A stretch of 38,351 nucleotides of DNA from a virus, in the IMG/VR virus record IMGVR_UViG_3300025466_000093, positions 1 to 38,351 of that record; one strand, 5' to 3'. The notes under the pieces are model-generated. The model had not been told where the DNA came from. It worked only from the letters and a program-made list of their open reading frames with translations, and did not search any database. The first letter of the stretch is position 1. Each line of letters begins with the position of its first letter. The position numbers and the translations under genes were made by a program. Positions 2,100 through 33,618 of this stretch are shown one piece after another.

Positions 2100-2287
2100 T
2101 ATGCAGTTGCGCTAGTTGGTGCTACGAATATTGTTCCATTCCATGTATCGCCAATATTTGCATTATTGCCAGATGAATCTGGAGTTACAATAAGCTCGCA
2201 ATTAGCTGGTGGAAGGTCTGTAGGCTCAGCTACAATTAAATTAATTACTAAACCATCTGAGATTTGGCATACAGCGCAAGTTGTCAT
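2099..2287 (-). CDS. Small fibre-associated protein
   Basis: A 62-residue protein starting MTTCAVCQ and ending with IGDTWNGTIFVAP. The last part resembles the short C-terminal motif (GDxWDGTxFxxP) that closes many phage tail-fibre and fibre-assembly proteins. It has a good ribosome-binding site (AAGGACAAAAT before ATG) and its stop overlaps the start of the Gly-rich adhesin, so the two are probably translationally coupled. A role as fibre accessory or assembly factor is inferred from position. Two cysteines (C4, C7) form a CxxC pair near the N-terminus. I do not recognise a named family. Confidence 0.7.
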   Translation of the reverse strand: MTTCAVCQISDGLVINLIVAEPTDLPPANCELIVTPDSSGNNANIGDTWNGTIFVAPTSATA

Positions 2288-2296
2288 ATTTTGTCC

Positions 2297-3310: not shown

Positions 3311-3347
3311 AATTAAATTCCTTTAAAAAATAGATTATAAACCAAAA

Positions 3348-6300: not shown

Positions 6301-8405
6301 GTATGAGCAATTGAACCATTAAAGGTTACTGGAGAAGCATCTCCTGTACCACTTGTATTAAAGGTTAATGAATTTGTAGTATTGGCAGTAACAGTAGTAG
6401 ATCCGCCAAGACTTACAGAATTACCATTAATAGTGATTGAGCTATTTGCAAGCTGTGCATTAGTGATAGTTCCGCTTAAAGAAGTAGTTGGTATAGTAGT
6501 TGATGAAGTAACTGCACCACTTCCATTACCATATAAATAACCAGTATAAGAATCTAGGGTTAAATTGCCTGTAGCTTCAAGTGTAGTAAATTTACCTGAA
6601 GCAGGTGTGGTAGCTCCAATAGGAGTAGAATTTAAACTATCAAGGATTAAAGCTACGCCTGATATAGAACCGCCTGTAATAGATACAGCATTAGAGTTTT
6701 GAGTACTCATTGTACCTAAACCAGTAATAGCAGTATTAGGAATAGTAGTAGATGCGGTTATTGCACTTGTACCATTTCCATATAGATAACCTGTAAGGGT
6801 TGTAGCTCCAGTTCCGCCACTTGCAACACCTAGTGTGCCAGCAAGAACAATAGCGCCACCTGTAGCAGTTGAAGGAGTTAAACCTGATAGAGTAGTTCTA
6901 AATGAAAGAACCTCACTACTTCCATCAAGAGCAATAGTAATGCCACCTGAGGTATTGGTTACTGAAATACCTGTACCAGCAGTTAAAGTAGATAAGGTAT
7001 AACCTGTAGAATTTCCGATTAATAATTGACCATTCGCAGGGGTTGAATTAAGTCCTGTACCACCAAAGCCAACTCCTAGAGTTCCAGATAAAGTCACTGC
7101 GCCTGAAGTGGTAGTAGAAGTAAGACCAGTAGATCCAGTGCTAAAAGATAGAAGTCCTGTATTGTTTATAGTCACTGCGCTTGAGCCATTATAGCTAGTG
7201 CCACTTAATCCTGTGCCTATAGTAAGAGCATAAGGATTAACTGCGGTGACTGTAGTAGATCCGCCTAATGAAACTGTATTTCCATTAATGGCAATTGAGC
7301 TATTAGTTAAAGCTGAATTAGGTATAAAGGTTAAAGTATTGGTATTGCCATTAATAGTTACACCAGTAAGACTTGTTAAAGTATCGCCTAGATTAACTGT
7401 GCTAGAACCTAATACAAAAGAGCTGTTGGCTAATTTAGAATTAGGTATAGTGCCATTGATTTGGCTTGCTGGAATATAGATACTTGTATTGCCAGCTTGA
7501 GTCAATTGACCTTGAGCATTGACTGTGTAAGTAGGTACTTGAGTTGCAGATCCATAAGAATTTGCAGTCACTCCAGTATTGGTAATAGAGAATTGTGTGC
7601 CTGTTAAAGTAAGACCTATGCCAGCAGTATAAGTACCATAGCCAGAGAATTGACTCCAAACAATAGGAGTGACATTGATAGTGCCTAATTCAGAGGTAAT
7701 TGCTACCCAGCCAGTATTGGCATATAAAGTACCATTTTGTACAAAGGTAGTAGCACCTGGCACTTCATTCCATACTGCCATATCAGCAGATCTAGCCCAA
7801 GATCCAGATTGAGCAATATAAATACCATTGTAGGCAGCATTAGCTTGATTTTTAACTAGGACTCGATCATTAGCTACAACTTGGTATCCATCAAGGACAG
7901 GGAATCCTGTAAGACTTACAGCAGCGGTTGTGGCTACTTGACACTCATATTTAGCAGCAGAAGCACCAGCTACAGAATCGACATATTGTTTATTTACAAT
8001 ATCATGGGCGCTTGTAGGTAAAGTACTAATTTGACCTGTAGTGGTCGCCATATTATTAAATACAGGTGAGTAATAGGCATTGTTTAAAGCATAAATTTGA
8101 GCAAAAGCATTTCCTGTGCCAGCAGTCATTAGATTAACTACAAAGCTACCAACAGCCCAATTTCTAGGCACTGTGCCTTCTTGACCTCTTTGCACTGTAA
8201 AGACATCACCATTAACAGCAGTGACTAAAACAATCTCATTAACAAGATTGTTAAGTGTTGAAACTATAGTAAGCTTAAATGCTTGGTTGGTAGTAGGATT
8301 AGGAAAATTAGCGCCAGTACCACCAGCAACAGTGATAGTAGTAGCTGTGCTTAATGCTGGTAAGGCTAGAGTTGTCTGAGCCTGATTAGCAAATAGTAAT
8401 AGCAT
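3348..8405 (-). CDS. Giant repetitive tail fibre (1685 aa)
   Basis: The largest gene of the window. Residues 1-110 are the anchor domain shared with the two genes before it (FANQAQTTLALP, NEIVLVTA, VQRGQEGTVPRNW). The rest is a long shaft of short repeats: GTGLSGTSYNGSSAVTI, TVNAQGQLTSASNT, LTPSTATGGAIVLAGTLG, GGTGATTLTGYLYGNGT. Two larger modules with NDRVLVKNxxxxxxNGIY and INVTP/ITYSQFSG.GTYTAG each span roughly 150-190 residues, near 7500-7950 and near 4800-5370. The text NSTPIGATTPASGKFTTLEA is a classic phage-fibre motif. The protein ends in beta-rich sequence with NGGAF. Probably a long side fibre for initial host contact. No chaperone or peptidase-like autoproteolytic domain was recognised at the C-terminus. 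Confidence 0.9.
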   Translation of the reverse strand: MLLLFANQAQTTLALPALSTATTITVAGGTGANFPNPTTNQAFKLTIVSTLNNLVNEIVLVTAVNGDVFTVQRGQEGTVPRNWAVGSFVVNLMTAGTGNAFAQIYALNNAYYSPVFNNMATTTGQISTLPTSAHDIVNKQYVDSVAGASAAKYECQVATTAAVSLTGFPVLDGYQVVANDRVLVKNQANAAYNGIYIAQSGSWARSADMAVWNEVPGATTFVQNGTLYANTGWVAITSELGTINVTPIVWSQFSGYGTYTAGIGLTLTGTQFSITNTGVTANSYGSATQVPTYTVNAQGQLTQAGNTSIYIPASQINGTIPNSKLANSSFVLGSSTVNLGDTLTSLTGVTINGNTNTLTFIPNSALTNSSIAINGNTVSLGGSTTVTAVNPYALTIGTGLSGTSYNGSSAVTINNTGLLSFSTGSTGLTSTTTSGAVTLSGTLGVGFGGTGLNSTPANGQLLIGNSTGYTLSTLTAGTGISVTNTSGGITIALDGSSEVLSFRTTLSGLTPSTATGGAIVLAGTLGVASGGTGATTLTGYLYGNGTSAITASTTIPNTAITGLGTMSTQNSNAVSITGGSISGVALILDSLNSTPIGATTPASGKFTTLEATGNLTLDSYTGYLYGNGSGAVTSSTTIPTTSLSGTITNAQLANSSITINGNSVSLGGSTTVTANTTNSLTFNTSGTGDASPVTFNGSIAHTISYNTIGASPLAGSTSLITTGTVTTGTWSGLFGAVSGANLTNLTAANLTGTTLPSSIVNSSLTTVGTIGTGVWHGTAITPAYGGTGATTLTGYVYGNGTGTMTASTTIPTTALSGTITNAQLANSSVTYNGVNVALGASGTITANTTNTLTFGTGLTGTSFNGSSAVTTAIDTTVVATLSGTQTLTNKSMSGSTNTFTNIPNSALSNSTISGISLGSNLDALTISTGLSGTSYNGGSAVTIAIANTAVTSGTYGSSLIVPVLTVNAQGQLTSVTNTTINAVTLTTGSITTTPVASTDIANKAYVDAAVSNLSIKDSCNEATTTALPTNIYNNGASGVGATLTGVATGTLTVDGQLVALNDRVLVKNEVTSANNGIYVCTVAGATGVAYVLTRSTDSNTSSEIQGEFTFIEKGTVNANTGWANTNTSTITIGTTAITYSQFSGAGTYTAGTGLTLTGSQFSITNTGVTANSYGSASSVPTYTVNAQGQLTSASNTPISIPASAINTTIPNSGLTNSTISGISLGSNLATLTIGTSLSGTSYNGGTAVTIALAPTAVTAGSYGSATQVGTFTVNAEGQITSASNTTVTPALTSITGFGTGVATALANATSTTGGMVLYGGALGTPSSGTLTNATGLPLTTGVTGILPVANGGTGVTSSSGANSVVLRDANANISVNCLFEGFTSQAAGSLITLTASSVQNWVITGSGGQTIKLPDATTLPSGAVFTFNNNQSSGTIVVQNNSSTTVVTTQSGSFIQLILLSNSTAAGSWDYHNVAPSNVSWSTNTLSWAGSYTNGTWNGNAVGILYGGTGLSSTPTNGQLLIGNGTGYTLSTITAGTGISVTNSAGGITIAVNGTGEVTSFQTSLSGLTPSTATGGAVTLAGTLGASSGGTGVATLSGLAYGNGTSAFTAATAAQVVSVIGTTAVTNATNATNSANIALTAGSGATNYLHFSSTATGNSAVNTNTSLTYNYTNNAITSGINGGAF

Positions 8406-8407
8406 CT

Positions 8408-9043
8408 TTAGAACCCACTAGGTTGAAAAGATGTACTAATGACATTCCAATTTGTTCCATCTGATTGCAACATACATGAAGTTCCTACAACAGCTTCTAA
8501 AATCACAGAAGTAAGTGTAGTAGATCCAGCAGGGACTATATTAGCTGTAGCGCTTAATACTTGATAGCCTTGTATATTTTTAATATAAAGTATATTGCCA
8601 TTATATGAAGCAGGATTTAATAGTGTAATTGTGCAGTCTGAAGCAATATTAATTGATAAGGTAGTATCAGTAGAAAGTTGTGTATAAAAAGCTGTTGTTA
8701 CTGACTTAACTGTAGGTATATTACTTTGTGTTTGAGCAAAGGCATTAGAAGCAGCAGCAGTTAGATAGTTAGATGCAAAGTCACCAGCAAGCCAAGACTG
8801 AGGTGTTGTGCCTTCTTGACCTCTTATAATGGTTAAAGTATCTGCTGATCTTGCAGTACAAAGACAAATCTCAGATAAAAGACCTGTGGCTGCATCATTA
8901 AAGGTTAAAGTAAATACTTGACCAGTTGATGGGCTAGGAAATTTAGCGCCTTGACCTGTAGCTAAAGTACAGGTAGTAGCACCAGCAGTAATAGGCGATG
9001 CTAATGTCGTCTGAGCATTGTTAGTAAAAAGATAGATTGACAT
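8408..9043 (-). CDS. Short tail fibre / anchor-domain protein
   Basis: A 211-residue protein. Its first 105 residues (YLFTNNAQTTLASPI, GQGAKFPSPSTGQVFTLTF, IRGQEGTTPQSWLAGDFA) match the N-terminal domain of the genes on both sides. The C-terminal half (NIPTVKSVTTAFYTQLSTD, SDCTITLLNPASYNGNILY, MLQSDGTNWNVIST) looks like a compact beta tip with the common fibre ending in which a W-x-V/I strand closes the domain. It may be a short fibre that competes for, or shares, the same attachment point as its larger neighbours. The stop lies three bases before the start of the giant fibre gene. Confidence 0.8.
   Translation of the reverse strand: MSIYLFTNNAQTTLASPITAGATTCTLATGQGAKFPSPSTGQVFTLTFNDAATGLLSEICLCTARSADTLTIIRGQEGTTPQSWLAGDFASNYLTAAASNAFAQTQSNIPTVKSVTTAFYTQLSTDTTLSINIASDCTITLLNPASYNGNILYIKNIQGYQVLSATANIVPAGSTTLTSVILEAVVGTSCMLQSDGTNWNVISTSFQPSGF
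8781..8815. repeat. 35-bp perfect direct repeat, copy A
   Basis: This stretch inside the anchor-domain coding sequence is identical base for base to 10523-10557 in the upstream fibre gene and encodes the EGTTPQSWLAGD region. Flanking codons differ at synonymous and non-synonymous sites, so a 35-bp perfect block suggests recent duplication or gene conversion. Confidence 0.85.
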
Positions 9044-9052
9044 AAAATCCCC

Positions 9053-9331
9053 TTATAGAATGCTATAGGTGTCGTTAGTTGCGCCAGTAAATTTAATAGT
9101 AGTTACAGGAAAATTAAGTACATAAGCTATCTGTGAAGTTTCACTATAAGTAGGTGTCACTGCTGGATAGAAAGTAGCTCCATTATCAAAGCTAAATTGA
9201 ATAGTTCTTCCACCTGCCACTGAGTTTAATACTACAGTTGATGGGATTCTTTGATTGTTTAATGAAGTGGTTGCAGTTGTACCAGTAAGTGTACCTGTAA
9301 TTGGACTGCCATAATTTGATGGGTTTTCCAT
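9053..9331 (-). CDS. Small structural protein between fibre genes
   Basis: A 92-residue protein with no family that I recognise. The sequence is rich in Thr, Ser and Asn with alternating hydrophobics (STVVLNSVAGGRTIQFSF, YVLNFPVTTIKFTG), which predicts an all-beta fold. No signal peptide or membrane segment is visible. It lies between two anchor-domain fibre genes in the same operon and has AAGGAAAAAATT before its ATG. A virion or fibre-accessory role is inferred only from position. Confidence 0.7.
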   Translation of the reverse strand: MENPSNYGSPITGTLTGTTATTSLNNQRIPSTVVLNSVAGGRTIQFSFDNGATFYPAVTPTYSETSQIAYVLNFPVTTIKFTGATNDTYSIL

Positions 9332-9342
9332 AATTTTTTCCT

Positions 9343-10785
9343 TTATTGTTTAATTTCTTGTAGTATGATGCTGTAGTTTCCTACTGGTACATTAATATAA
9401 GCTGGTGTTTGTTGTGCTGTAACAGCAGTTCCACCATAAACTGTACAAGCGTCATTGTCTGCATCAGGATCGTCAATTGATCCAATAACCATATTATAAG
9501 TCACAGTAGAGGTAGTTGCAGGACTATCTAAATAAATACTTGTTAAATTTCCTAATGCTGGTGGTGCATCTTCTGCTCCATTACCTAAATAAGTAGTTGA
9601 TATTAAAGTAGCTCCCCTATAAATATCCATAAATGCACCATTAGACTCACCTTTAAATGCTAATACAGGGCAATTCATTTGAACTAAAATTTTACTATTA
9701 GCATATTGAGGAACAATATTAAGGCTTAAGACATTGATACCTAAAGTATTATTAGTAGAGAATCCAGAAGTGCTACTTGCAGCTTGAGTTTGAATTACTG
9801 TTCCAGCAGGTAAAGTCAATTGATTAGTAAAAGGATTTAATAATATCCATTTACCAAATTGAGTGCTGTAAACAAACTCAGCGACATAACCAGAGCCAGG
9901 AATATCTCCAGGTGTTAAAGGTAAATTATTGCCTTTTACAATAGTAGTTGTTGCTGTTGCAGTAGATCCTAAAGTAAGAGTTAAATTAGGAGTTGCTGTA
10001 CTATTAGCATAAAGAGTTCTTACATACACTTGCATACCATCTGTTAAAGAAGTTAATGGAGAAGGTATAGTTGTAGCAATAGTATTAGCGCCACCTGTAG
10101 CAACACCATAAAGCCAATATTGTTGTTGTAACTGAGTTGGGGTTACAACAGCGCCTTGACCTGTAGCTGGGTTTTGTAAGACATAAGCACTATATACAGG
10201 ACTCCAAGATACAAGCATTGGATAACCAGAATTAGGAATATCACCTAAAACTAAAGGTTGATTATTAGCTTTTACTAAAGGATAAACTCCAGTAGTTGTA
10301 GTTCCCATAGTTAAATTAAGAGTAGTTGCTCCAGTATTTGCATTAGAAGCTTGTAGAGTAAAAGTAAAATTAGTAGGGATATAAGCTAAATTAGAAGGAA
10401 TAGTTGCTGTTAAAGAATTGGCAGTTCCTCCTGCTACAGCAAAGTCATAAGTACCAATTTGGTATTGGTCAATCTGGATATTGTTATTTTGTGTACCTGC
10501 TGTATAAAGCATACCTGCTAAATCACCAGCAAGCCAAGACTGAGGTGTTGTGCCTTCCTGTCCTCGCAGAATAGTTACTACATCGCCTGATCTGGCTGTT
10601 ACCAATACAATTTCATTTAAAAGACCAGTAGCAGCATCTACAAAAGTAAGCTTAAAGCCTTGACCAGTAGAAGGACTAGGAAATAAAGATCCTGTGCCTG
10701 GAGCTAAAGTAGCTGTGGTAGCCGAGCTAGTTAAAGAATTAGCTAGGGTTGTTTGTGCATTATTGGCAAATAAATAGATAGTCAT
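9343..10785 (-). CDS. Tail fibre with anchor domain and SKILV tip
   Basis: A 480-residue protein. Residues 1-105 are the shared anchor domain (YLFANNAQTTLANSL, RGQEGTTPQSWLAGDLA). Two tandem copies of a roughly 100-residue shaft domain follow: each has GGTANSLTATIPS or GGANTIATTIPS, then NTGATTLNLT or NSTATPNLTL, then VKxNNxPLxxGDIPxSGY, ending in LQNP or LLNP. The C-terminal 150 residues carry LGINVLSLNIVPQYANSKIL, the SKILV-type domain common at phage fibre tips. As the first fibre gene after the baseplate gene gpI-like, it is the best candidate for the fibre bound directly to the baseplate. Confidence 0.87.
   Translation of the reverse strand: MTIYLFANNAQTTLANSLTSSATTATLAPGTGSLFPSPSTGQGFKLTFVDAATGLLNEIVLVTARSGDVVTILRGQEGTTPQSWLAGDLAGMLYTAGTQNNNIQIDQYQIGTYDFAVAGGTANSLTATIPSNLAYIPTNFTFTLQASNANTGATTLNLTMGTTTTGVYPLVKANNQPLVLGDIPNSGYPMLVSWSPVYSAYVLQNPATGQGAVVTPTQLQQQYWLYGVATGGANTIATTIPSPLTSLTDGMQVYVRTLYANSTATPNLTLTLGSTATATTTIVKGNNLPLTPGDIPGSGYVAEFVYSTQFGKWILLNPFTNQLTLPAGTVIQTQAASSTSGFSTNNTLGINVLSLNIVPQYANSKILVQMNCPVLAFKGESNGAFMDIYRGATLISTTYLGNGAEDAPPALGNLTSIYLDSPATTSTVTYNMVIGSIDDPDADNDACTVYGGTAVTAQQTPAYINVPVGNYSIILQEIKQ
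10523..10557. repeat. 35-bp perfect direct repeat, copy B
   Basis: Identical to 8781-8815. Together the two copies bracket about 1.7 kb that includes the 92-residue gene, so recombination between them would delete or fuse one fibre gene and swap its tip. Confidence 0.85.
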
Positions 10786-10794
10786 AGCGGTCTC

Positions 10795-11505
10795 TTATGT
10801 CAAAGTTAGATTATAAGTGTATTGAAAGGGTAATTGTAAAACTCCTGCATTAATTGCAGCCTGTAATATAGGAAATAAATTTGTAGGTATATAAGTCTTA
10901 AAAATAGTAGGTTGATTCATAGGCAATTGATCTAGTTCAAAAGTATCAAATAAAGCACCACCTTTAGTGGTTAGAATGCCTTTTTTGACATTAATATTAA
11001 CTACATCGGTTGCAGCAAAAGTAACACTAATTTGATAGGTATTATCAAGCTTAGGATCAGTTCCATTAACACCAGCTAAAAATCTAGCTATTCTATTTTT
11101 AAGCCATCTAATATTAAATTGGTATCCATCGCCTTTATAGAAGTTCCAAGTAATGCACCTTTTAAATATATCGTCAGTGACATTATAAAAAGCTGTAGGA
11201 GCTAATTTTTTTAAAGCATTATAGTTACCTTCATTTAAGTGAGTAGTATTATACTCACCTTTATTTTTGTAGTAGCCTTGTGGGATTACAGGTCTTTTTA
11301 AACCATAAATACCTAGAGCCACCCAGTCTAATAAATTACCTGAGATACTTGTGCTAGTATAAATAGGTAAATTAAGGTTATTGATTTGATCTAAATATTG
11401 TTGTGCAGTTGTATTGTAGGCATCAAAAAAGGCTTGCAAATACTGAGTGCTATCATGCCCTGTATATTGCGAATAAAGATAAGAAGGTAATATCTTGGTT
11501 TGCAT
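10795..11505 (-). CDS. Baseplate protein, P2 gpI / DUF2612-like
   Basis: A 236-residue protein that starts with a helical part (LPSYLYSQYTGHDSTQYLQA, YLDQINNLNLPIYTS) and has GNLLDWVALGIYGLKRP, typical of the DUF2612 and gpI-like baseplate proteins, in which the particle must first recognise it has left the previous gene. The C-terminal half includes FKRCITWNFYKGDGYQFNIR and RWLKNRIARFLAG. In contractile phages this protein follows baseplate J and carries the fibres. The order here, J then this gene then fibres, agrees. It starts two bases after the stop of the J gene. The family call rests on order and these motifs. Confidence 0.75.
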   Translation of the reverse strand: MQTKILPSYLYSQYTGHDSTQYLQAFFDAYNTTAQQYLDQINNLNLPIYTSTSISGNLLDWVALGIYGLKRPVIPQGYYKNKGEYNTTHLNEGNYNALKKLAPTAFYNVTDDIFKRCITWNFYKGDGYQFNIRWLKNRIARFLAGVNGTDPKLDNTYQISVTFAATDVVNINVKKGILTTKGGALFDTFELDQLPMNQPTIFKTYIPTNLFPILQAAINAGVLQLPFQYTYNLTLT

Positions 11506-11507
11506 TA

Positions 11508-12911
11508 TTAGCCTTGAGTAATAGTTACTAAGCTTGTATTAGTTTGGAAATAAGATTCAGGATCACCATAAATCAATAAACTGCCTGCTGCTGGTGATAC
11601 AGATACTCCATTAATTGCAATTGCAAATACTAATTTAGATATTAAGTCTTGAGGAATAATAGATTCAATTGCATTTTGGAAAGCATCTTCTAATGAATAA
11701 GTATTGATAGGCTGACCTACTACAATAGAATTAATATAATTAACAATAGCTGGCTGACCTAATGCAGCTACCGCAGTAGGTGAGATATAGTTAGTTGATA
11801 TAGTATTCCAAGTAAGAGATACTGTTACAGCTTGTTGTGGTGGGTTTACAAAAGTAATATTGTAAGAATCTGGATAATCATTAATAGATACTGTGACATT
11901 TCTATAATTAGGAGTTATGACACCACCAGAGGTATAAGTACCAAAAGTAGAAGTATTCTTGCTTGTAGTTACAAGATTGTTAGCTATAGCAGTTACAGTA
12001 TAAGTACCATTAAATGTAGAAGGAGTAGCTCCTGCCACTGTAATGACTTCACCCACTGTATATTGACCAAAATAAGATCCAGTATTAATGACTGCATTAG
12101 TTCCTGTAGTAATGCTAGATACAGTAATTGTAGAACCTACTAAATTAGATATATCAAAAAGACCTTGATAGATAGCATTGCCTACTTGGTATGGATCGCC
12201 ACCACCGCAAATAACTTCCCATTGATTAGCGCCTGGATTTCTTACAGATACAAGTCTTGATTGAACTCCAGATACTTTATTTAATTGAGCTTTTAAAAAG
12301 GTAGGCATACCTTGAGCAGTTGCTAAACCAGCTTGAATGACTTGAGCTTGATAATCTGCTAAAGGTTGAGCAGTAGCACCTGGAAGTCCAGTAGTTAAGT
12401 TGGTAACTGTTAAGGTTACTGTGCTAGGTACAGAAGTAATGATTTGAGTTACAGTACCTACAGGAACAGCCCAAGATCCAGAAACTGTAGCTAAACAATA
12501 TAATGCGCTACTTTGACCTGTGGCAGCAATAGATCCGCCATCTTGTACGGAGTATTGATGAGTACCATCTGATACTATAAAACCTCTAGGAATAATAAAT
12601 CCTGGAGTGCCTGTAAAATTGACATATACAGAAGTGTTAGATCCTTGACCTTGTTGAACACCATAAACTGAACCTAATTGATAAAGAATATATGGGTTAG
12701 CTGTGTAAGGGCTAATTGAATTAACTAAATCGACATAGGCTAAATCCTGAACCACTACAGCGCCAGCAGCGGTAGAAGCCATATCCTCAACAAGAGATCC
12801 TGGTAAATTTGCAGTGAGTCCAGGAGCTAATGCAGTAGCGGCTGCTATTTCTGCATTTAATAGGTCGGTTGGGCTACTTGGTACTGCACCTGATTTAGTA
12901 ATAATTGCCAT
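11508..12911 (-). CDS. Baseplate J-like protein
   Basis: A 467-residue baseplate wedge protein. The N-terminus has the family pattern SGAVPSSPTDLLNAEIAAA, LPGSLVEDMASTAAGAV and YILYQLGSVYGVQQG; then comes FTGTPGFIIPRGFIVSDG and LADYQAQVIQAGLATAQGMP, also typical. Residues about 264-333 hold an inserted beta domain (VAGATPSTFNGTYTVTAI, YTSGGVI) that also occurs in the tail sheath protein. The end has PTAVAALGQPAIVNYIN and INTYSLEDAFQNAIES, matching the gpJ C-terminus. It links hub and fibre-bearing parts of the baseplate and takes part in the switch that triggers sheath contraction. Confidence 0.9.
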   Translation of the reverse strand: MAIITKSGAVPSSPTDLLNAEIAAATALAPGLTANLPGSLVEDMASTAAGAVVVQDLAYVDLVNSISPYTANPYILYQLGSVYGVQQGQGSNTSVYVNFTGTPGFIIPRGFIVSDGTHQYSVQDGGSIAATGQSSALYCLATVSGSWAVPVGTVTQIITSVPSTVTLTVTNLTTGLPGATAQPLADYQAQVIQAGLATAQGMPTFLKAQLNKVSGVQSRLVSVRNPGANQWEVICGGGDPYQVGNAIYQGLFDISNLVGSTITVSSITTGTNAVINTGSYFGQYTVGEVITVAGATPSTFNGTYTVTAIANNLVTTSKNTSTFGTYTSGGVITPNYRNVTVSINDYPDSYNITFVNPPQQAVTVSLTWNTISTNYISPTAVAALGQPAIVNYINSIVVGQPINTYSLEDAFQNAIESIIPQDLISKLVFAIAINGVSVSPAAGSLLIYGDPESYFQTNTSLVTITQG

Positions 12912-12921
12912 TTTTTATCCT

Positions 12922-13563
12922 TTAAGTCGCTATGACGGATTGAATAGTAGTTCCGTCAGTAAATATTGCTGAGATATTATAAGTCGGTTGAGCTGCTAAT
13001 TGTTGTTTTGATACAGCTAAACTTGCAAAATGAGGTGAATATTGAGATTGAGTTCTTGAAACTGCTGCATCTGGTGCAATTTGAGTATGTACTGATTTAT
13101 ATGCAGGAATGCCATAATTGCCATAAAAAGGACTTTCGCCTTCAATAAGCCTTAAAGTCTGAACAAGGGTAGTAAGCCAAATATAACCTACACTTACTTG
13201 CACTACTTCACCTTGTTGCAAATTCCAAGTATTAAATGATGAATTATTAACAGGTTTAAGAATATATTGTGGGGGCGGTGCAGTTGGCAAAAGTACATTT
13301 TGTGTGACATTTGACCAAGTATTTACTAGAGTATTTCCATAAGAATCTGTAATAGTATTATTTTGAATAGTATCACCTTGATTAATAGTAATAGGTGGTA
13401 AACTAAAATCTATAGTAGCTGTGTAAATAGTACTAGATACTGTAAAAATATCGCCAACACTGTCTGTAAAATTGTAAACAACAGGATTGGAAGCATTTTG
13501 GTATGGAGCTTGAGTTAATAAAGTCCATTGATTTGTGTTTGGATCTATACCATAAGTTCTCAT
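12922..13563 (-). CDS. Baseplate protein, gp25-like C-terminus
   Basis: A 213-residue protein. The first 110 residues are beta-rich with no family that I recognise. The last 90 (TLRLIEGESPFYGNYGIPAY, SPHFASLAVSKQQLAAQ, PTYNISAIFTDGTTI) resemble the gp25/gpW sheath-initiator fold, with its E-G-E-x-P and G-I-P signature and a C-terminal beta hairpin. Its position between spike and baseplate J is where gp25 analogues sit. The start ATG touches the stop of the spike gene. Function as wedge protein or sheath initiator is inferred. Confidence 0.68.
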   Translation of the reverse strand: MRTYGIDPNTNQWTLLTQAPYQNASNPVVYNFTDSVGDIFTVSSTIYTATIDFSLPPITINQGDTIQNNTITDSYGNTLVNTWSNVTQNVLLPTAPPPQYILKPVNNSSFNTWNLQQGEVVQVSVGYIWLTTLVQTLRLIEGESPFYGNYGIPAYKSVHTQIAPDAAVSRTQSQYSPHFASLAVSKQQLAAQPTYNISAIFTDGTTIQSVIAT

Positions 13564-14198
13564 TATATTGGAGTTCCTGTATTTCCAGAGCCTGTTTGTA
13601 CTCCTGAGTGTTCGTGAGTACTACTAATATTTACACCATTATTAGTTAAAGTGCCTGTAGTTTGAATATTGCCATTAATTATAACACTTCCATTACTGAT
13701 ATTTAGAGTGCCACCATTAAGATTAATAGATATTCCAGATGAGTTTAAAGTAAGGGTACAGTCTTGATTAATAGTAGTAAGCTCTACTCCATTAACTCCG
13801 TACATAAATAAATATTTACCATCGACATTAAACCAATTCTTATTGCCAATAGGTACAAAAATAAGACCACCAAGATTGGTAGGATTTACAAGATCAGCTA
13901 ATCCTAATCCTAGTCCAGATATACCACCTAGACGAGCATTAGCGCCCATTACAACACCTTTATCGCCTGGCTGAATAGGTAACCTTGTATATTGACTTTC
14001 AGCGATAGGACAAGTCACTTGTGGCAAAGTAATACCTTCTGGGACATTAACCTCAAAAGCTACAGTAACAATAGCTCCACTAATTGAAACCACAGAGCAA
14101 GGTAAAGCCTGACCAAGATTTTGTAATTGATTCTCAATTTTGTTTTTAGAGAATTTATTAATGGTTTGGGCAAAGGGGACTTTTTGTGAGATTGTCAT
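13563..14198 (-). CDS. Baseplate central spike (gpV / gp45-like)
   Basis: A 211-residue protein. Residues 30-110 fit an OB-fold (PCSVVSISGAIVTVAFEV, PIAESQYTRLPIQPGDKGVV). The stretch after that has the beta-helix character of spikes, with repeating NLNGGTLNISNGSVIINGN. Near the C-terminus it has THEHSGVQTGSGNTGTP with H195-E-H197. In P2 gpV, phi92 and Mu gp45 spikes, an HxH motif in the trimer binds one iron ion at the sharpened tip, so the same is expected here. It pierces the outer membrane during contraction. Located between hub and wedge genes, as usual. Confidence 0.85.
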   Translation of the reverse strand: MTISQKVPFAQTINKFSKNKIENQLQNLGQALPCSVVSISGAIVTVAFEVNVPEGITLPQVTCPIAESQYTRLPIQPGDKGVVMGANARLGGISGLGLGLADLVNPTNLGGLIFVPIGNKNWFNVDGKYLFMYGVNGVELTTINQDCTLTLNSSGISINLNGGTLNISNGSVIINGNIQTTGTLTNNGVNISSTHEHSGVQTGSGNTGTPI

Positions 14199-14208
14199 TT
14201 TTTATCCA

Positions 14209-15180
14209 TTATTGTGAAATATAGGCATCAATTACACTACACCAGCTATTAGCATCTGCTTGGCGACTATTACCTACATGGCGGATCTGTTGTATCTGGA
14301 ATGTACCTTGAAAAGATATATCATTCCTAAATTGAGTAAAACTGTTTGTAGTATTTAATAAAGGTGCGCCTTTAGGGAATTTGATATATTGACCTACAGT
14401 TAAGTCACCTCTCATCACCACTTTAGCCTGTATAGTGTATAAATCTAACCAAGTTAGATTACCTATAATATCGTAATAACTAATCTGTGTAGGATTGGTT
14501 AATGAATTAGATTGACCTGTATCTCCTATACCATCTGATAAAACAAATCCATTAGAAGTAGAAGCAATACTAGCTCCAATATACTTAGGATCTTTAATAA
14601 TATACTTGCTAAGCTCATTCATTTTTTCTGAGAATTGCTGTAGATTGTAATTATAAAAAGGCTGATCTTCTGTATAAACTAAATTGGTAGAAAAATTACC
14701 TGTGATATTTACACCAGGAAAAGCTTGATTTAAGGTGCTAGTTACAAATTTTTGCATAGTTGTGCCTTTATACCAAATACCAGTAAGATTTGGCTCTTTA
14801 GTAGAATCATAAATTAAAGGCACTACAATAAGGTGAAGGCTGACTTCATTACCTTGCCAATTACCAAAAGCTTGCCAAATTGTACCTTGCAATACAATTC
14901 CTCTTTCTTGTGGGTTAGCTAAAGGCAATCCAATATTCATACCTACTGAAACTGATATAGTTTGATTGTTTAAATTAGAAGCTTGGCTGATAGTTTCATA
15001 GGTAACCCCAGTAATTTTTATATAGGGATTTTGAGCTGGAGCATGAAAAAAATTCTGGAACATATCCAGTTCAACTTGAAGCGCAGCACCATTATTAGAG
15101 TTATCACTATTTAAGCTAGTGAACTGATTTATTATTTTTCCTGTTTTAGAATCAGTAATGACAATATCATAGTATCTCAT
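14209..15180 (-). CDS. Baseplate hub protein (gp27/gpD-like)
   Basis: A 323-residue protein. The beginning (MRYYDIVITDSKTGKIINQF, AALQVELDMFQNFFHAP) and ALxVELD-type text, followed by NPYIKITGVTYETISQAS and ISVSVGMNIGLPLAN, are typical of hub proteins in Bcep781-type and related myoviruses. The end, FQIQQIRHVGNSRQADANSW, matches the hub ending in which a disordered loop precedes C-V-I-D. The protein should form a trimeric ring between tail tube and spike. The next gene downstream encodes the spike, which supports the call. Its start overlaps the stop of the plug-like gene by four bases. Confidence 0.78.
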   Translation of the reverse strand: MRYYDIVITDSKTGKIINQFTSLNSDNSNNGAALQVELDMFQNFFHAPAQNPYIKITGVTYETISQASNLNNQTISVSVGMNIGLPLANPQERGIVLQGTIWQAFGNWQGNEVSLHLIVVPLIYDSTKEPNLTGIWYKGTTMQKFVTSTLNQAFPGVNITGNFSTNLVYTEDQPFYNYNLQQFSEKMNELSKYIIKDPKYIGASIASTSNGFVLSDGIGDTGQSNSLTNPTQISYYDIIGNLTWLDLYTIQAKVVMRGDLTVGQYIKFPKGAPLLNTTNSFTQFRNDISFQGTFQIQQIRHVGNSRQADANSWCSVIDAYISQ

Positions 15181-15449
15181 GGTGTCACTTCAAAATTTCC
15201 TGATGAAGCTCTATAAACTAAGGTAGAAGTAAAGAAATAGTTTTTAACTAAATTAATATCGTAATTATCAGGTGAAGCAATAATTGGAATGCTTAATATA
15301 AGAGTTTTAAAAGCATCATAAATATTAATATAGTATCTATTGCCATAACCATTCCAAGTGCAAATTGCAGTGTAAGTTGTGCCATCTAATACAGGGTTAA
15401 ACTGAAAATTAGCTGATGGAGAAGGATTAAAGGCTACAAAAGTGGTCAT
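15177..15449 (-). CDS. Small baseplate protein, plug-like
   Basis: A 90-residue protein with N-terminal FQFNPVLDGTTYTAICTWN and then YGNRYYINIYDAFKTLIL. This short beta pattern (x-F-x-L-D-G-x-x-Y, W-N-x-x-x-x-x-Y-x-x-x-x-x-D) fits the family of small baseplate proteins typified by the Pam3 cyanophage plug gp18 (DUF6983). Its place between a Dit-like protein and the hub is the same as in that arrangement. It overlaps both neighbours by four bases, which implies translational coupling. Family assignment is from memory of the pattern and is moderate. Confidence 0.65.
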   Translation of the reverse strand: MTTFVAFNPSPSANFQFNPVLDGTTYTAICTWNGYGNRYYINIYDAFKTLILSIPIIASPDNYDINLVKNYFFTSTLVYRASSGNFEVTP

Positions 15450-16153
15450 GGTAATGAGATATTAGTTGGTGTGCCTGTTCCATTAGAGAACAAGGAAGCA
15501 TTGCTTTGTGGTTGATAATTTTGTGAAGCGCCAATATTAGCTCCAGTGCCGCCCCAGTTGTCCAGATTAGTAGGAGTTGGAGTGCCATTACCTATTTTAG
15601 TCATTAGATTGTTATAGGTCGCTGTTGCTGCTTGTTGAGTGACTAATGGTTGTACAAAATCCCATTGATACATAAATTGGACTTGTTTATCGCTTAAAGT
15701 ACTTACATCTCTTAAATTAGTCAAAATACAATTTGAATAGGTATAAGCAGGAGTGGCTACAATAAAAGTACCGCCTGCCAAAATATGATTATCTAATTGT
15801 GTTTTTAAATTAGTTAAAACAGCTTGTTTTTCAAAGTATCCATTACCATTGTTTTGTGCTGGACAAGCCATCATTAGACTTACCTTTAAAGGCATTTGAA
15901 TAACAGCATTGGCAGCCATTTGAATAGATGCAAAAGGATATTCAGCGACTTGCCATTCTTGTAATGAATTACCACCCACTACTTTAAAGTGAGCAAAATA
16001 ATCATTGGCATCTGGGTAAAATATATCAGCACCCTCAGTAAGAGTTAATATACTCATTAAACCATTAGGCAAATTAGCAGCTAATCCATTTACCAAAAGA
16101 ATAGGAGCTATTTCATATTGGTATTGAAATTGAATTTGTTGTGAAGTAATCAT
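15446..16153 (-). CDS. Baseplate / distal tail (Dit-like) protein
   Basis: A 235-residue protein immediately after the tape measure. Residues 1-170 (FQYQYEIAPILLVNGLAANL, ADIFYPDANDYFAHFKVVGG, TLSDKQVQFMYQWDFVQPLV) have the beta-barrel character of tail-tip ring proteins and the Q-M-x-F/W-D-F ending that closes them. The last 60 residues are Asn/Gly/Thr-rich and probably flexible. Ring proteins that start the tube at the baseplate occupy this place in Bcep781-type and Pam3-type phages. It starts on the ATGA overlap with the tape measure stop. Confidence 0.65.
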   Translation of the reverse strand: MITSQQIQFQYQYEIAPILLVNGLAANLPNGLMSILTLTEGADIFYPDANDYFAHFKVVGGNSLQEWQVAEYPFASIQMAANAVIQMPLKVSLMMACPAQNNGNGYFEKQAVLTNLKTQLDNHILAGGTFIVATPAYTYSNCILTNLRDVSTLSDKQVQFMYQWDFVQPLVTQQAATATYNNLMTKIGNGTPTPTNLDNWGGTGANIGASQNYQPQSNASLFSNGTGTPTNISLP

Positions 16154-17679
16154 GGATTTCCTACAGTTGCCATACCTACAGCAGAAGCAGTAGCATTTCC
16201 GCCAGTATTGTTATTGATATTAACACTAATAGCATTAGAGTACATCTCTCTTTTATAGGTTTCATAACCCATATTAGCTGGTCTCTCATATTGTTGAGTA
16301 ATGATTTTAGAAGCTTCTGTAGGTGTAGCAGCCTTTTTAAGAGCTTCTCCAGCCATAGCTTCTTTATGATTTAGTTCATATAGGAAGAATTGTAATTGTT
16401 CTTGTAAAGTACTTCCTTTTAATGAATGACCAAACAATGATTCAAATTCTTTTTGACGAGCAGTATCCCATTGAGCAATACCTACACCTGATCCGCCTTT
16501 TTGTAGAGCATTAGGGTTATAGCCACTTTCAGCATAGAAATTACCAAGAACACCAGCGATTTGAGCTTTTGTAAATCCTTTGCTTGCAAGGAAATCAATA
16601 ATTTGTTGTTTATTACTTTTTTGTTGTGCAGAGCTAATAGTCTCAGATCCTGCTGGATTTAAAGTCTTATTAACTTGTGACACTTGACCAAAAGCCCTTC
16701 TAAGTGCATCTACAAGCTCACCTAAGATTTTAATTAAAGGAGCAAATATATATTCTGCAATACCTAATTTAGATGGAGTAAATGCTTGTAAAATTTTTCT
16801 TTCAATAGTTACTTTTAAAGTCGTAAAGAAGGTTTCAATAGTAGTCTCAATAGTCTGCGCTCTTTTTTCTTCTTCTGGGGTAAGACCGACTGCTGGAACT
16901 AATTGTTTATATCGCTCTACTGTCTCTGGGAACTCTTTTTGTAGTTTAAGTATTCTTAATTGCTCATCAAGAGGTAAGACTTGACCATAGCCCTTAACAG
17001 CAGATAGAACTTGTAGTCTTTGTAAGCCTTGTTGTGTATTGACATCAATGCCTTGTTTTTTGACATCTTCAAGGAATTTTTGTACTATGAGTGGGTAGAG
17101 TTGTGCTGCATCTTTACCAATATTTTCTTTGCCTACCATCTGTTGTAGGTAAGGGGATAATTTTGTCTGTAAATCTGCTATTTTGCTTAAATCTGCGGAT
17201 ACATCACCAAAGCGCTTAAATGCAATCTCAGCAGCCCTTAATTCAGCAGTATCTCTTAATCCAAGACCAGCAGCCTGCCTTCTTTTCTCTGATACATCTT
17301 CTACAGTAGATGATATAGCTCCACCAGCAATACCTAATGCTAATGATGCTAAAGCGCCTTCTGTACCAAATAAAGATAGGAATTTACCTGCGATTGAGGA
17401 AATATTATTCATATTTCCACTAATTACTGTAGTTATTTTTTGGGTAAGTTTAAGACTTTCATTGCTATCATCGATAGCTCTCATATAGTCTTTAAGTGAT
17501 TTGGTATGACCTTTTACAGCCTTCTCAGAATCTAGGGATGTCTTTTTAGTTTGCTCATTGATCTTTTGCCAGTCTTTAGGCATTCTTTCAACAGCTTCTT
17601 TGTATTGCTCAAAGGCAACTAGAAATTCTTGGAATTTCTCGTCTAGTACATCTATCTCAATTACTGATTTAATAGCCAT
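16150..17679 (-). CDS. Tape measure protein with tail lysozyme domain
   Basis: A 509-residue protein. Residues 1-85 are helical and charged, residues 98-130 a Gly/Ala-rich hydrophobic helix (LFGTEGALASLALGIAGGAI), residues 130-350 mixed helices. Residues about 355-480 form a tail-lysozyme domain: IIDFLASKGFTKAQIAGVL, then GNFYAESGYNPNA with the catalytic-type Glu384, GVGIAQWD and the end motif YERPAN. This domain should cut peptidoglycan during DNA injection. The length sets tail length; at about 0.15 nm per residue (known rule) a tail near 75 nm is predicted. The gene follows the chaperone frameshift product by 21 bases and has no clear Shine-Dalgarno sequence before its ATG. Confidence 0.88.
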   Translation of the reverse strand: MAIKSVIEIDVLDEKFQEFLVAFEQYKEAVERMPKDWQKINEQTKKTSLDSEKAVKGHTKSLKDYMRAIDDSNESLKLTQKITTVISGNMNNISSIAGKFLSLFGTEGALASLALGIAGGAISSTVEDVSEKRRQAAGLGLRDTAELRAAEIAFKRFGDVSADLSKIADLQTKLSPYLQQMVGKENIGKDAAQLYPLIVQKFLEDVKKQGIDVNTQQGLQRLQVLSAVKGYGQVLPLDEQLRILKLQKEFPETVERYKQLVPAVGLTPEEEKRAQTIETTIETFFTTLKVTIERKILQAFTPSKLGIAEYIFAPLIKILGELVDALRRAFGQVSQVNKTLNPAGSETISSAQQKSNKQQIIDFLASKGFTKAQIAGVLGNFYAESGYNPNALQKGGSGVGIAQWDTARQKEFESLFGHSLKGSTLQEQLQFFLYELNHKEAMAGEALKKAATPTEASKIITQQYERPANMGYETYKREMYSNAISVNINNNTGGNATASAVGMATVGNP

Positions 17680-23153: not shown

Positions 23154-24179
23154 CTAATAAGCAGCTGACAAGATTGTCAATGCTTCAGGTCTGATACCCC
23201 AGCCTGATGTACTTCTCATTGTATAGAGAGTAGTAATTCCACCATCTGCAATAGGTGTTGGAATTTCAGTAGGAGCAGATACATCTGTAAGCATTAATGA
23301 TGTAGCTGTTTGGTTAGGTGTCAATGTAGCAAAAATGTTAGTATTAATAGCATTGTTTGCTTTAGGGATCTTAAGTTCTGGAGCAATTAAGATAATTGCA
23401 TCAGTACCACCGAAGCCTTGACCGATTAGTGTGTCGTCAGCTGCGAAGCTAACATCATCACCACCTGCCCATTGAGCAACTGTTTCAACTAAACCAGCAG
23501 CAGTTTCAACACCAGCACCAATTCTTTGGAATTGTGTTAAAGACACTACGCCAGAATATGAAATTTGGCTAATGAATCTTTGTGGTGCTAAGAAAACTAA
23601 GCGGAGTGGTTGTCCAATTTGAAGTGTACGCACTTTTAAAGCGCCAATCATATTCAATAGATATTGAGCTAATTGACCGCTATCCCAAGTACTGTAACCA
23701 GTGTTGCCATTGGTATCAGCACCAAGAACTTGAGTAGTAGCACCTGAAGTGTTTAATAAACCTTCTCCGTTTGCTGGGTTAAAGCCATAAAGTAGAGCAT
23801 TACGCAATTGTTGAGCGATACCTTGACGAGCAGCTAAGCGCATACCTTGTGGTAGTGCATAGCCCCAAGCGCCAGTAGCAGCTTCATCGAAATTATCGTA
23901 TTGCGCTCTAGTTTGTAGGCGGTAAGTAGCAGTACTAATCATTGAAGGAATGATAGATGCACTTGGCAACTGATTCACTTGTGATTGATTAGCTTGTACT
24001 TGTGTTGTTAATTGTACTTTTTTAGCATATACATAAAGATCCGCTTCACCAAGTCTTGGCATAGGATTTTCTGTTGCTAAAGTTGTGAAAGCACCTGAAG
24101 CCAAACTGTATTGCATAATGAGTTCTGGCATCATGTAGTGCGGATTTACTGTTACAAATGATGGTGCAAAGCCTGACAT
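23154..24179 (-). CDS. Major capsid protein (DUF2184-like)
   Basis: A 341-residue protein with the features of the DUF2184 capsid family: an N-terminal arm with YASG-like LASGAFTTLATENPMPRLGE, then VYAKKVQLTTQVQANQSQ, ARQGIAQQLRNALLYGFNPA, LVFLAPQRFISQISYSG and the ending GWGIRPEALTILSAAY. HK97-type fold is expected. The length fits. Codons are typical of the window and the gene is followed by a strong terminator, consistent with high expression. It is preceded by a cement-like protein gene and by scaffold-like and protease genes, the usual head operon. Confidence 0.88.
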   Translation of the reverse strand: MSGFAPSFVTVNPHYMMPELIMQYSLASGAFTTLATENPMPRLGEADLYVYAKKVQLTTQVQANQSQVNQLPSASIIPSMISTATYRLQTRAQYDNFDEAATGAWGYALPQGMRLAARQGIAQQLRNALLYGFNPANGEGLLNTSGATTQVLGADTNGNTGYSTWDSGQLAQYLLNMIGALKVRTLQIGQPLRLVFLAPQRFISQISYSGVVSLTQFQRIGAGVETAAGLVETVAQWAGGDDVSFAADDTLIGQGFGGTDAIILIAPELKIPKANNAINTNIFATLTPNQTATSLMLTDVSAPTEIPTPIADGGITTLYTMRSTSGWGIRPEALTILSAAY

Positions 24180-30968: not shown

Positions 30969-31514
30969 TTAAATATATTGCCAATGATAACCATAGGCAG
31001 ACTTTAATCTTTTGTTTAAGGCATTTCCAATAGCGCTTATATGAGCTTTAGGTTTGCCATTTTTTTTTAGCCACTTGGCAGAATCGTGCAATGCTTCAAA
31101 TTTTAATCCAGTTTCGATGCAAATAAAAGGTTTATTCTTATGAGTTCTTAAATACTTCACAAGTTTAGCTTTGGCTGAATCTGTTAATTTATTCCCAATA
31201 TGGGACTTTTTAAGATTATTGATATGCTCATCACTAAATTTTAAACCGCTTAATCCTTCACCACCATTGGTAAGATTAGCTAATTTATGTCCTAAATTTT
31301 TATAATATGCGATTAATTGTATTTCATGGTTTAGAGCATCTTGCTCATATTCCCATCTTGAAACAATTTCTACATCAAATTCATGCTTTTGAGCTATATG
31401 CTTCCAATATTTATTTCTACCGCTTAATTTCCATGCTCTATTACTTGTACCTTTGCCAATATAAAATGGCTCTTTAGTATCTGATTTGTAATGAATATAA
31501 GTATAGAATTTCAT
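30969..31514 (-). CDS. GIY-YIG homing endonuclease (free-standing)
   Basis: A 181-residue protein. Residues 4-9 and 17-22 give YTYIHY and FYIGKG, the GIY-YIG signature; Arg26 and Glu64 fit the catalytic Arg and Glu. Residues 92-118 form a NUMOD3 DNA-binding motif (FSDEHINNLKKSHIGNKL). Residues 145-181 look like a NUMOD1-type helix-turn-helix (SAKWLKKNGKPKAHISAIGN). It sits between terL and portal genes, which normally adjoin, so it is a mobile insertion. No Shine-Dalgarno sequence precedes its ATG, and the upstream sequence is a short AT run with TATAAT. I see no intron boundaries in the flanking genes. Confidence 0.9.
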   Translation of the reverse strand: MKFYTYIHYKSDTKEPFYIGKGTSNRAWKLSGRNKYWKHIAQKHEFDVEIVSRWEYEQDALNHEIQLIAYYKNLGHKLANLTNGGEGLSGLKFSDEHINNLKKSHIGNKLTDSAKAKLVKYLRTHKNKPFICIETGLKFEALHDSAKWLKKNGKPKAHISAIGNALNKRLKSAYGYHWQYI

Positions 31515-31526
31515 ATTAATATTATA

Positions 31527-32822
31527 TCAATAACCATACTTATCACCTACGCCTATCGCAATTCCATAGGTAAAACAATCAAGTAAATCATCGGCTCTTT
31601 TATAGGCTTCTTTATCTCCAATGCGGAAGCTTGTGACCTGACTAATCAAATGATTTCTTGAAGCATTTTTGAAAGTCATAGTCTTATCAAAGGCATATTG
31701 GCTAATTTTAATCTTCTCTTGATGGAAGTGACCAGAGACTGAAATAGCTCTCTCATCTTTACCCACTGAAGTAAGTCCAGAGTCTATCGCATGGGTATTC
31801 CATCCTCTAGTTCTACCTTGCTGGATAAGAATAGATCCTGCTGCTGCATCTTCGATAAAAGTACCGACTGATCCATGTCTTGCCTGTGTGACTTTGGCAA
31901 ATTCTTCTAATCTTTCAAAGACTGAAGGCATCCATGATTCTAATAATGCGCCATCTATCTGGATTATATCCCAGTCCAAAATAATAATAGGTTGCCCATA
32001 GAGTTTATTTAATGCAAAGTAAATAATAGCTGTACCATCATTTTCTTTACCGCCTTTTACTGCGGTATCGATCACTGCATATACTGCATCGCATTTAACT
32101 GGATAATCGACTGGCTTTCCATCAACTAGCATTTTGTCCAGGCTAAAAAATGCTTCCCCTGACCAATCTACAAATTCTGCTAAATACTCTTGTCTGAATA
32201 CTAAGGGATGATTTTCCTTCTCAAGCTTTAATAGTTCTTCCTGTGGCAAAAATGGGTTTGTGTGTGTGGGTGCGTGGTAACTTGTAAATCCATGCTCAGG
32301 ATCATTGCATACTTGCCAAAAGAAATTCTCACTATCTACACCATTAGGAGTTGAGGCTGTAATACAACTTCCTTGATAATCAAGTAATGCTGGTTTGATA
32401 GCGGTCTGCCATACTTTAAGCATATTGGGTTTTGTAAAGGCGGCTTCATCGATAAAAGCTTTATGATACTTTCTGGATCGACCAGCTCTTTCATTTTCAA
32501 GAGTCCAAAAGTCTATTCTGCCACCAGTATAGGTCTGAATAATCCCATCTATCTTGGATGATGATTTAATCATGGGGGCTAAATAGTCGGTAATCTCTCT
32601 AAAGGCTTCGGATTGAATCTTATAGTCTGGTGCAAACCATCCTATCTTTTCACCTAAGGCAGCGGCAGCGCAAGCTATATTTTGCATCATAGCTGTTTTA
32701 CCCCATCGCCTTCCACACCTTACCGCAAAGAATCGAGTAGAAGCATCGAATGCGTCTTGCTGTCCTTTGTGAAATGGCGGTAAATTAATCGGCTCTTTGA
32801 TTAGTTTTGGTTGGGATGCCAT
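31527..32822 (-). CDS. terL: Terminase large subunit
   Basis: A 431-residue packaging motor. Walker A is CGRRWGKTA at residues 36-44, Walker B is FIDEAAF at 123-129, and the coupling motif is ITASTPNG at 154-161. The nuclease domain shows VIDTAVKGGKENDGTA (Asp252), FIEDAAAG (Glu324, Asp325) and DDLLDCF (Asp411-Asp412, Asp415). Length and motif order are as expected and all catalytic residues are present. The gene overlaps terS by 38 bases. It cuts concatemeric DNA and drives it into the prohead through the portal. The packaging strategy (cos or pac) cannot be read from the sequence alone. Confidence 0.95.
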   Translation of the reverse strand: MASQPKLIKEPINLPPFHKGQQDAFDASTRFFAVRCGRRWGKTAMMQNIACAAAALGEKIGWFAPDYKIQSEAFREITDYLAPMIKSSSKIDGIIQTYTGGRIDFWTLENERAGRSRKYHKAFIDEAAFTKPNMLKVWQTAIKPALLDYQGSCITASTPNGVDSENFFWQVCNDPEHGFTSYHAPTHTNPFLPQEELLKLEKENHPLVFRQEYLAEFVDWSGEAFFSLDKMLVDGKPVDYPVKCDAVYAVIDTAVKGGKENDGTAIIYFALNKLYGQPIIILDWDIIQIDGALLESWMPSVFERLEEFAKVTQARHGSVGTFIEDAAAGSILIQQGRTRGWNTHAIDSGLTSVGKDERAISVSGHFHQEKIKISQYAFDKTMTFKNASRNHLISQVTSFRIGDKEAYKRADDLLDCFTYGIAIGVGDKYGY

Positions 32823-33249
32823 TCACTGTCCAGTTATTTTCTTCTTTAACTTCATCGGCTCTATCGCCATATTTTTTAGGAGCTAACTTAGAAATAATCC
32901 ATTTTCTGGTATCAATTCTTAATCTTGATCTATTGACTACTTCCCAGTTAGTTCTGATATTGCCATTCTTATCTTCTATTGCATCATTGAAGGTATCATC
33001 GGCAATATCTAATAGTTCTTCAAATAGGTAATCTGCTTGGAGTTCTCGGGCGAGTGCGTATCTGTCCCTGAAATAAGTATGATTTAATAGCCACCTCATC
33101 GCTGTGGATCTGCCTGGCATATCTTCTCGCTTGCAAATCTTGACTAAGCTATTCCCTTCAGCAATCAATTCACAGATTTCATCTGCTTTCTTGTCTGAAT
33201 AGTCGGTTGGTCTGCCTTTATCGGCTTTTGTAGTGATAGTATCTGTCAT
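32785..33249 (-). CDS. terS: Terminase small subunit
   Basis: A 154-residue protein. It starts TDTITTKADKGRPTDYSDKK, then ADEICELIAEGNSLVKICKR, and STAMRWLLNHTYFRDRYALAR. This is a DNA-binding helix-turn-helix N-terminal part of the Sf6-type small-subunit family, with the conserved G-R-P-T-x-Y start. Residues 75-125 (LFEELLDIADDTFNDAIED, RLRIDTRKWIISKLAPKKYG) are the usual oligomerisation part and C-terminal end. It recognises the packaging start site. There is no Shine-Dalgarno motif before its ATG, unlike most genes here; a structured RNA element ends nine bases upstream. Confidence 0.9.
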   Translation of the reverse strand: MTDTITTKADKGRPTDYSDKKADEICELIAEGNSLVKICKREDMPGRSTAMRWLLNHTYFRDRYALARELQADYLFEELLDIADDTFNDAIEDKNGNIRTNWEVVNRSRLRIDTRKWIISKLAPKKYGDRADEVKEENNWTVNGIPTKTNQRAD

Positions 33250-33257
33250 AGTTATAA

Positions 33258-33319
33258 TGTCAGGATACTACCAGATTGCTCTGATATGAGCCGCAAGGAC
33301 AGTTGCGTGTACCCTGACA
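33258..33319 (-). ncRNA. Candidate structured RNA before terS (three-way junction)
   Basis: On the minus strand this sequence folds into three helices. P1 is 11 bp (33258-33268 with 33309-33319; ten Watson-Crick pairs and one G-U). P2 is 5 bp (33292-33296 with 33303-33307) with loop CUGUCC. P3 is 7 bp (33269-33275 with 33280-33286; one G-U pair) closed by GCAA, a GNRA tetraloop. P1 and P3 are adjacent with no linker; the linkers are A and GCUCA. The element lies in the only intergenic gap between the HNH gene and terS. It could be a leader RNA that controls terS translation, or part of a packaging site. I do not recognise it as a tRNA or known ribozyme. Folding was done by hand. Confidence 0.55.
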
Positions 33320-33348
33320 GCTCGAATATTAACACAATATATTAAAAA

Positions 33349-33618
33349 TCAAGCTAATTTAGATAGTATGATAGCCAATAGATCTTCTTCTGTTGTGTTA
33401 TAAGTCTGCTCGAATCGCTTTCTTCCTAATCCATGAATGCCAGTTTGACCTCTATGGTGTTCTGGGCATAATGGAATAGCTGGGGCTTGATCTCTTTTCA
33501 TGCCAAATCTTCTAATATGATGGATTTCGGCTGGAGTTCCTATATATCCAAGTGTATAGCATAATATACAGCCAAAAGATGCTAACTTATTGTATTGTTT
33601 TTTTTCTTCTTTTGTCAT
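33349..33618 (-). CDS. HNH nuclease, Ref-like
   Basis: An 89-residue protein with Zn-binding and HNH features: Cys17 and Cys20 (FGCILCYTLG), EIHHIRR with His33-His34, then PLCPEHHRGQTGIHGLGR with Cys51, His54 and His55 and G-x-x-G-I-H. This is the pattern of the P1 Ref-type HNH nuclease family often found in phages near recombination or packaging genes. Some HNH proteins next to terminases are required for packaging (HK97 gp74), so that role is possible here. The gene overlaps the upstream small gene and is the last one before the structured RNA. Activity is inferred from the motifs. Confidence 0.85.
   Translation of the reverse strand: MTKEEKKQYNKLASFGCILCYTLGYIGTPAEIHHIRRFGMKRDQAPAIPLCPEHHRGQTGIHGLGRKRFEQTYNTTEEDLLAIILSKLA

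Follow-up and report, generated by a model that had tools for sequence, protein, structure and literature searches.

Several described RNAs resemble parts of the structure reported here. The leaders of ompA and papA are 5'-terminal stem stabilisers of bacterial mRNA; they are simple hairpins that place a base-paired 5' end before the start codon, at +1 or close to it, with a Shine-Dalgarno (SD) motif downstream. For both RppH and RNase E the 5' end must be single-stranded, and structure at the 5' terminus stabilises mRNA (review PMC3997798). The putL RNA of phage HK022 is about 70 nt long and located just downstream of PL, and the put architecture consists of two stem-loops in tandem and has no closing helix (PMC9378689). 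The cabRNA of staphylococcal phages is derived from inside terS/terL, and its sequence is not conserved between phages (PMC10686824). The pRNA of phi29 is a small structured RNA with a three-way junction.

The locus studied here belongs to IMG/VR record IMGVR_UViG_3300025466_000093, of which the whole stretch of 38,351 nucleotides (the window) was analysed. It contains a structured element, the leader RNA, on the minus strand upstream of terS (Table 1). Like the ompA and papA leaders, this element would provide a paired 5' end before a start codon; however, it is built from three helices with an invariant loop, and an SD is absent. Both HK022 put and the leader RNA are structured phage RNAs of approximately 60–75 nt that need no nearby gene; put stands at the start of a long transcript or close to it, as is predicted for the leader RNA. 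In contrast to put, which is carried on early transcripts and occurs twice per genome, the leader RNA belongs to the predicted late transcript, occurs once per genome and has, in place of tandem stem-loops, a three-way junction with a closing helix of 10 bp. Both it and cabRNA are structured RNAs from the terminase region, but the leader RNA is a covarying element upstream of terS, not a part of terS/terL. The comparison with phi29 pRNA is limited to a small structured RNA with a three-way junction in a packaging phage, whereas the terminase is of another type (Sf6-like TerS/TerL), the element sits in the terS leader, and the phi29 pRNA family gave no Rfam match in the element region at E<=10.

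Table 1. Coordinates of the leader RNA, its helices and neighbouring features in the window
Feature	Position	Strand	Description
Leader RNA	33319-33258	minus	62 bases, structured; fold z, covariance model matches and compensatory changes
P1 helix	33319-33309 with 33268-33258	minus	11 bp including U1-A62
P2 helix	33307-33303 with 33296-33292	minus	5 bp; loop CUGUCC (33302-33297)
P3 helix	33286-33280 with 33275-33269	minus	7 bp; loop GCAA
Extended -10 element of predicted late promoter	33326..33334	minus	TGTTAATAT; consensus match, same geometry in groups A-E
Spacer between P1 and terS ATG	33250..33257	minus	TTATAACT; 8 nt, without SD motif (sequence)
terS	32785..33249	minus	First late-operon gene here; PF20901, Sf6-type small terminase, Pfam E 5.4e-41
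terL, large terminase	31527..32822	minus	tblastn similarity to annotated TerL proteins (about 50% identical to those of Pantoea, Klebsiella and Yersinia phages)
Ref-like RecA-dependent nuclease, upstream gene	33349..33618	minus	PF16786, E 2.2e-11
GIY-YIG-like gene, terminase-portal region	30969-31514	minus	By-eye sequence call
Intrinsic terminator inside late operon	18447-18418	minus	Strong; 13 bp and T tract

The window represents most of a phage genome of about 47.6 kb. A second contig (G006, IMGVR_UViG_3300025369_000001) is the same phage in circularly permuted form, with 99.995% identity over the matching window stretches 1-17167 and 17069-38351; the approximately 9 kb of early region absent from the window were read from it. 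Judging from the sample sets in the IMG/VR contig names, this phage and its relatives are apparently freshwater phages. Genome comparison also gave matches of about 77% identity between the tail-gene segments 8774-8969 and 10516-10711, which are parts of 3348-8405 and 9343-10785 and suggest a repeated module. The T tract of the terminator in Table 1 abuts the SD of the following gene, so that a promoter would not fit behind it. A further intrinsic terminator follows the gene 23154-24179, and equivalents with a different stem sequence follow the same gene in G001, G002 and the RNA-less G005. The Ref-like nuclease gene is not a constant neighbour of the leader RNA, being absent in L003 and in group B (groups are defined below).

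The fold drawn in the first-pass annotation, with the three helices of Table 1, a GCAA loop and two G-U pairs, was reproduced at -26.9 kcal/mol (z = -5.07), and none of 200 shuffled sequences was as stable. The element lies, as annotated, in a real intergenic gap (33250-33348, 99 nt) between the Ref-like nuclease gene and terS, but the distance to the terS ATG is eight bases and not nine. No SD motif precedes this ATG, though many other genes of the phage carry one. When 59 nt of downstream sequence were added, a single alternative fold was obtained that was about 1 kcal/mol (1.1) better, and this fold is missing from the close relative L003. No tRNA or tmRNA was found in the window. The first-pass annotation could not place the element in a described RNA family, and Rfam 15 agreed: the whole window had no match at the gathering threshold, and at E<=10 the element region had only chance eukaryotic matches.

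Homologues were sought among TerS relatives in IMG/VR, by pattern scans and among TerL relatives, and were checked with covariance models. About 30 IMG/VR contigs of uncultured phages carry the element, in every case at the start of the terS/late operon, and they fall into five sequence groups: A (the window, L001-L003), B (L028-L031, L167, L169, L172, L173, L175-L177, L181), C (L053, L061, L101, L144, L163, L180, L182), the GC-rich group D (L004-L009) and E (L193/L294, L314, L322). Model R1, built without groups D and E, recovered group E at E = 2.3e-7 and group D, with filters off, at the expected place at E 0.023-0.04, the E-values of covariance models built here being rough. Each contig with an R1 match has one copy; additional matches fall at that site on the opposite strand. 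A search of cultured phages gave no relevant similar sequence, and the pattern used on 85,000 prokaryote genomes gave 12 matches, none of them credible. These 12 and most viral pattern matches, considered as remote members, failed in P1 or with the covariance model, and L396 and L428 were rejected because their sites are antisense within a coding gene. Relatives without the leader RNA also exist (L199-L207, G005); thus, it is dispensable in the wider phage group.

The alignment of groups A, B, C and E revealed compensatory (two-sided) changes at 9 of the 16 pairs of P1 and P2. In it 97.5% of the P1 and P2 cells are paired, where cells are sequences from five groups only and not independent events; neither value was reached by any of 500 shuffles. 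Sliding the partners by 1-3 columns lowered pairing to 20-44%, and the result held when group D, which aligns imperfectly in P2, was added. The covarying positions are the inner part of P1 and the P2 stems, and the invariant parts are the P2 loop CYGUCC and outer P1 (UCAG/CUGA). P3 is present in all groups but varies in length and sequence, its covariation being judged by eye; its GNRA loop is confined to group A, and the other groups have loops of the types UCAAAAG (B), CCAAAA (C) and CCCAAAAAGG (E) or a pyrimidine-rich loop (D). G-U pairs are confined to the sense strand, and the fold z was better on the sense than on the antisense strand in all seven sequences compared. A protein-coding origin was rejected, since the length varies out of frame (about 58 to 68 nt across homologues) and the changes follow the pairing; a ribozyme was rejected on account of junction residues that are not conserved. 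Compensatory change in related phages and conservation upstream of terS, the two observations on which the first-pass annotation had staked the element, were both made. The leader RNA is thus a structured RNA kept in shape by compensatory mutations and without an Rfam family.

In addition, the element has a fixed relation to a promoter-like sequence. In groups A-E an extended -10 (TGNTANNNT; variants TGTTAATAT, TGCTAATAT, TGATAATAT and TGATACTAT) ends 6-7 nt before P1, and from this spacing we infer that +1 is the first base of P1 (about 33319). The late mRNA probably begins with the leader RNA. Between L294 and L322 the flanks of the -10 differ, and TGATAATAT and the leader RNA are kept. In the RNA-less relatives L199, L205, L206 and L207, which have the same gene order and TerL proteins 65-80% identical, the terS ATG itself stands 6-7 nt behind the extended -10. 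Among 738 other ORFs, 2 show this arrangement, and in L200 and L203 a plain -10-like hexamer occupies the position of the extended element. A leaderless terS mRNA is therefore predicted for the RNA-less relatives, and the leader RNA would lie exactly between promoter and start codon. Where it is present, the start codon in groups A-E follows the last conserved pair of P1 after about 9-23 nt.

We propose, at a probability of roughly 0.4, that the leader RNA is a cis-acting leader at the 5' terminus of the late mRNA that pairs and protects the 5' end and shows its conserved loop to a partner. Transcription from the extended -10 promoter would begin at the first base of P1, and the nascent 58-68 nt would fold into the three-way junction, in which the closing helix includes the very 5' end. 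The paired end may shield the long late transcript from 5'-end-dependent decay of the RppH/RNase E type, the leader RNA may insulate the SD-less start codon, translation of the first gene would begin about 10 nt downstream without an SD motif, and the invariant loop CYGUCC may bind a protein or RNA. This proposal is favoured because of the covariation with an invariant loop, the spacing of 6-7 nt from TGNTANNNT to P1 across five diverged groups, a -10 and an RNA that persist between diverging flanks, the single copy at the late-operon head, the RNA-less relatives with the -10 at the terS ATG, the sense-strand G-U pairs and the better sense z. A helix from +1, as predicted in all groups, is the arrangement that hinders RppH and RNase E (PMC3997798), which supports a stabilising leader. 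However, the existence of RNA-less relatives and a start region that is only moderately unpaired in silico (mean 0.47-0.79) argue against it, and an invariant loop sequence would be superfluous in a pure 5' cap.

The invariant loop requires an additional partner, and the main rival is therefore a nascent-RNA antiterminator like HK022 put. More broadly, the leader RNA could represent a new class of cis RNA acting on RNA polymerase or the ribosome at a phage late promoter, either as an RNA-only late antiterminator or as an SD-independent leader that replaces leaderless initiation; this is conceivable but on balance doubtful. As a processive antiterminator of the put/nut kind, the nascent RNA, with or without a factor, would bind RNA polymerase and let it pass the terminators of the late operon (about 30 kb), a possibility that we regard as rather unlikely. 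The size and place of the element resemble HK022 putL, there is a single element with an invariant loop at the operon head of each genome, the late operon contains strong intrinsic terminators (at 18447-18418 and behind the gene 23154-24179), and neither N nor Q was recognised among 20 non-late proteins scanned. On the other hand, the conserved 10-bp P1 encloses both hairpins, unlike the tandem put architecture, model R2 showed nothing convincing in HK022 26-33 kb (a stretch within which the put coordinates were not confirmed), and the RNA-less G005 has a terminator behind the syntenic gene as well. Owing to this last terminator, at the same place, a correlation of the leader RNA with internal late terminators was uninformative.

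A trans-acting small RNA or SD-mimic, based on pairing between the loop CUGUCCUU and the SD motifs AAGGACAG of the phage, is improbable. The exact loop complement AAGGACA does occur, as the SD motif AAGGACA(G), before approximately 10 of the 73 genes of the window phage (G006 / L183-L185). This pairing suits the window phage but does not hold for groups B, C and D: phages of groups B and C mainly use GAAAGGAA (CACGAAAGGAA in B phages), and the D-loop complement GAGGACGG is not enriched in D phages. Moreover, no terminator follows the leader RNA.

A translational operator for TerS, whether for autoregulation or as a switch that hides the start codon, fits the position of the element 8 nt before the terS ATG, and a hairpin at the start codon is possible in the window sequence. 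That sequestering hairpin (1.1 kcal/mol) was rejected, being restricted to the window; it is missing in L003 and is not the predicted fold in groups B-E. Pairwise comparisons placed the element at mosaic joints. The window and L003 are 51% identical upstream, 100% in the element and 89-97% downstream, and the pairs L028/L173 and L101/L144 are 98-100% identical upstream, 98% in the element and 52-66% downstream. In L101 the leader RNA directly precedes terS, whereas in L144 the 98% identical RNA is followed by a GIY-YIG gene and then a different terS. The GIY-YIG-like gene directly behind the leader RNA of L144 (3043-3519, called by eye) is, like that of the window, in the terminase-portal region. 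Since the downstream genes differ in groups B and C, the leader RNA belongs to the promoter and operon and not to TerS. Its retention where terS was swapped (L101 against L144, L028 against L173) makes the operator quite improbable. Of the annotated leader RNA controlling terS, the leader thus stands as the best reading, and control specific to terS does not.

A DNA-level site (pac, operator or recombination joint) with the pairing as a DNA palindrome, akin to the packaging site once suggested, would suit the mosaic joints and the DNA recognition by Sf6-type TerS but is very improbable given the compensatory changes in P1 and P2, the one-strand G-U pairs, the better sense z (7/7), the promoter geometry and the RNA-less relatives that still have terS, and a cos/pac or HNH-linked site was rejected because the adjacent nuclease gene is not constant.

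To our knowledge, few phage-specific covarying RNA structures are tied to a late promoter. The leader RNA, which would be an RNA family missing from Rfam, covaries clearly, has a precise promoter geometry and comes with natural controls in the form of close RNA-less relatives with a predicted leaderless terS. Thus, a simple reporter could test whether it acts in mRNA stability, in antitermination or in SD-less translation.
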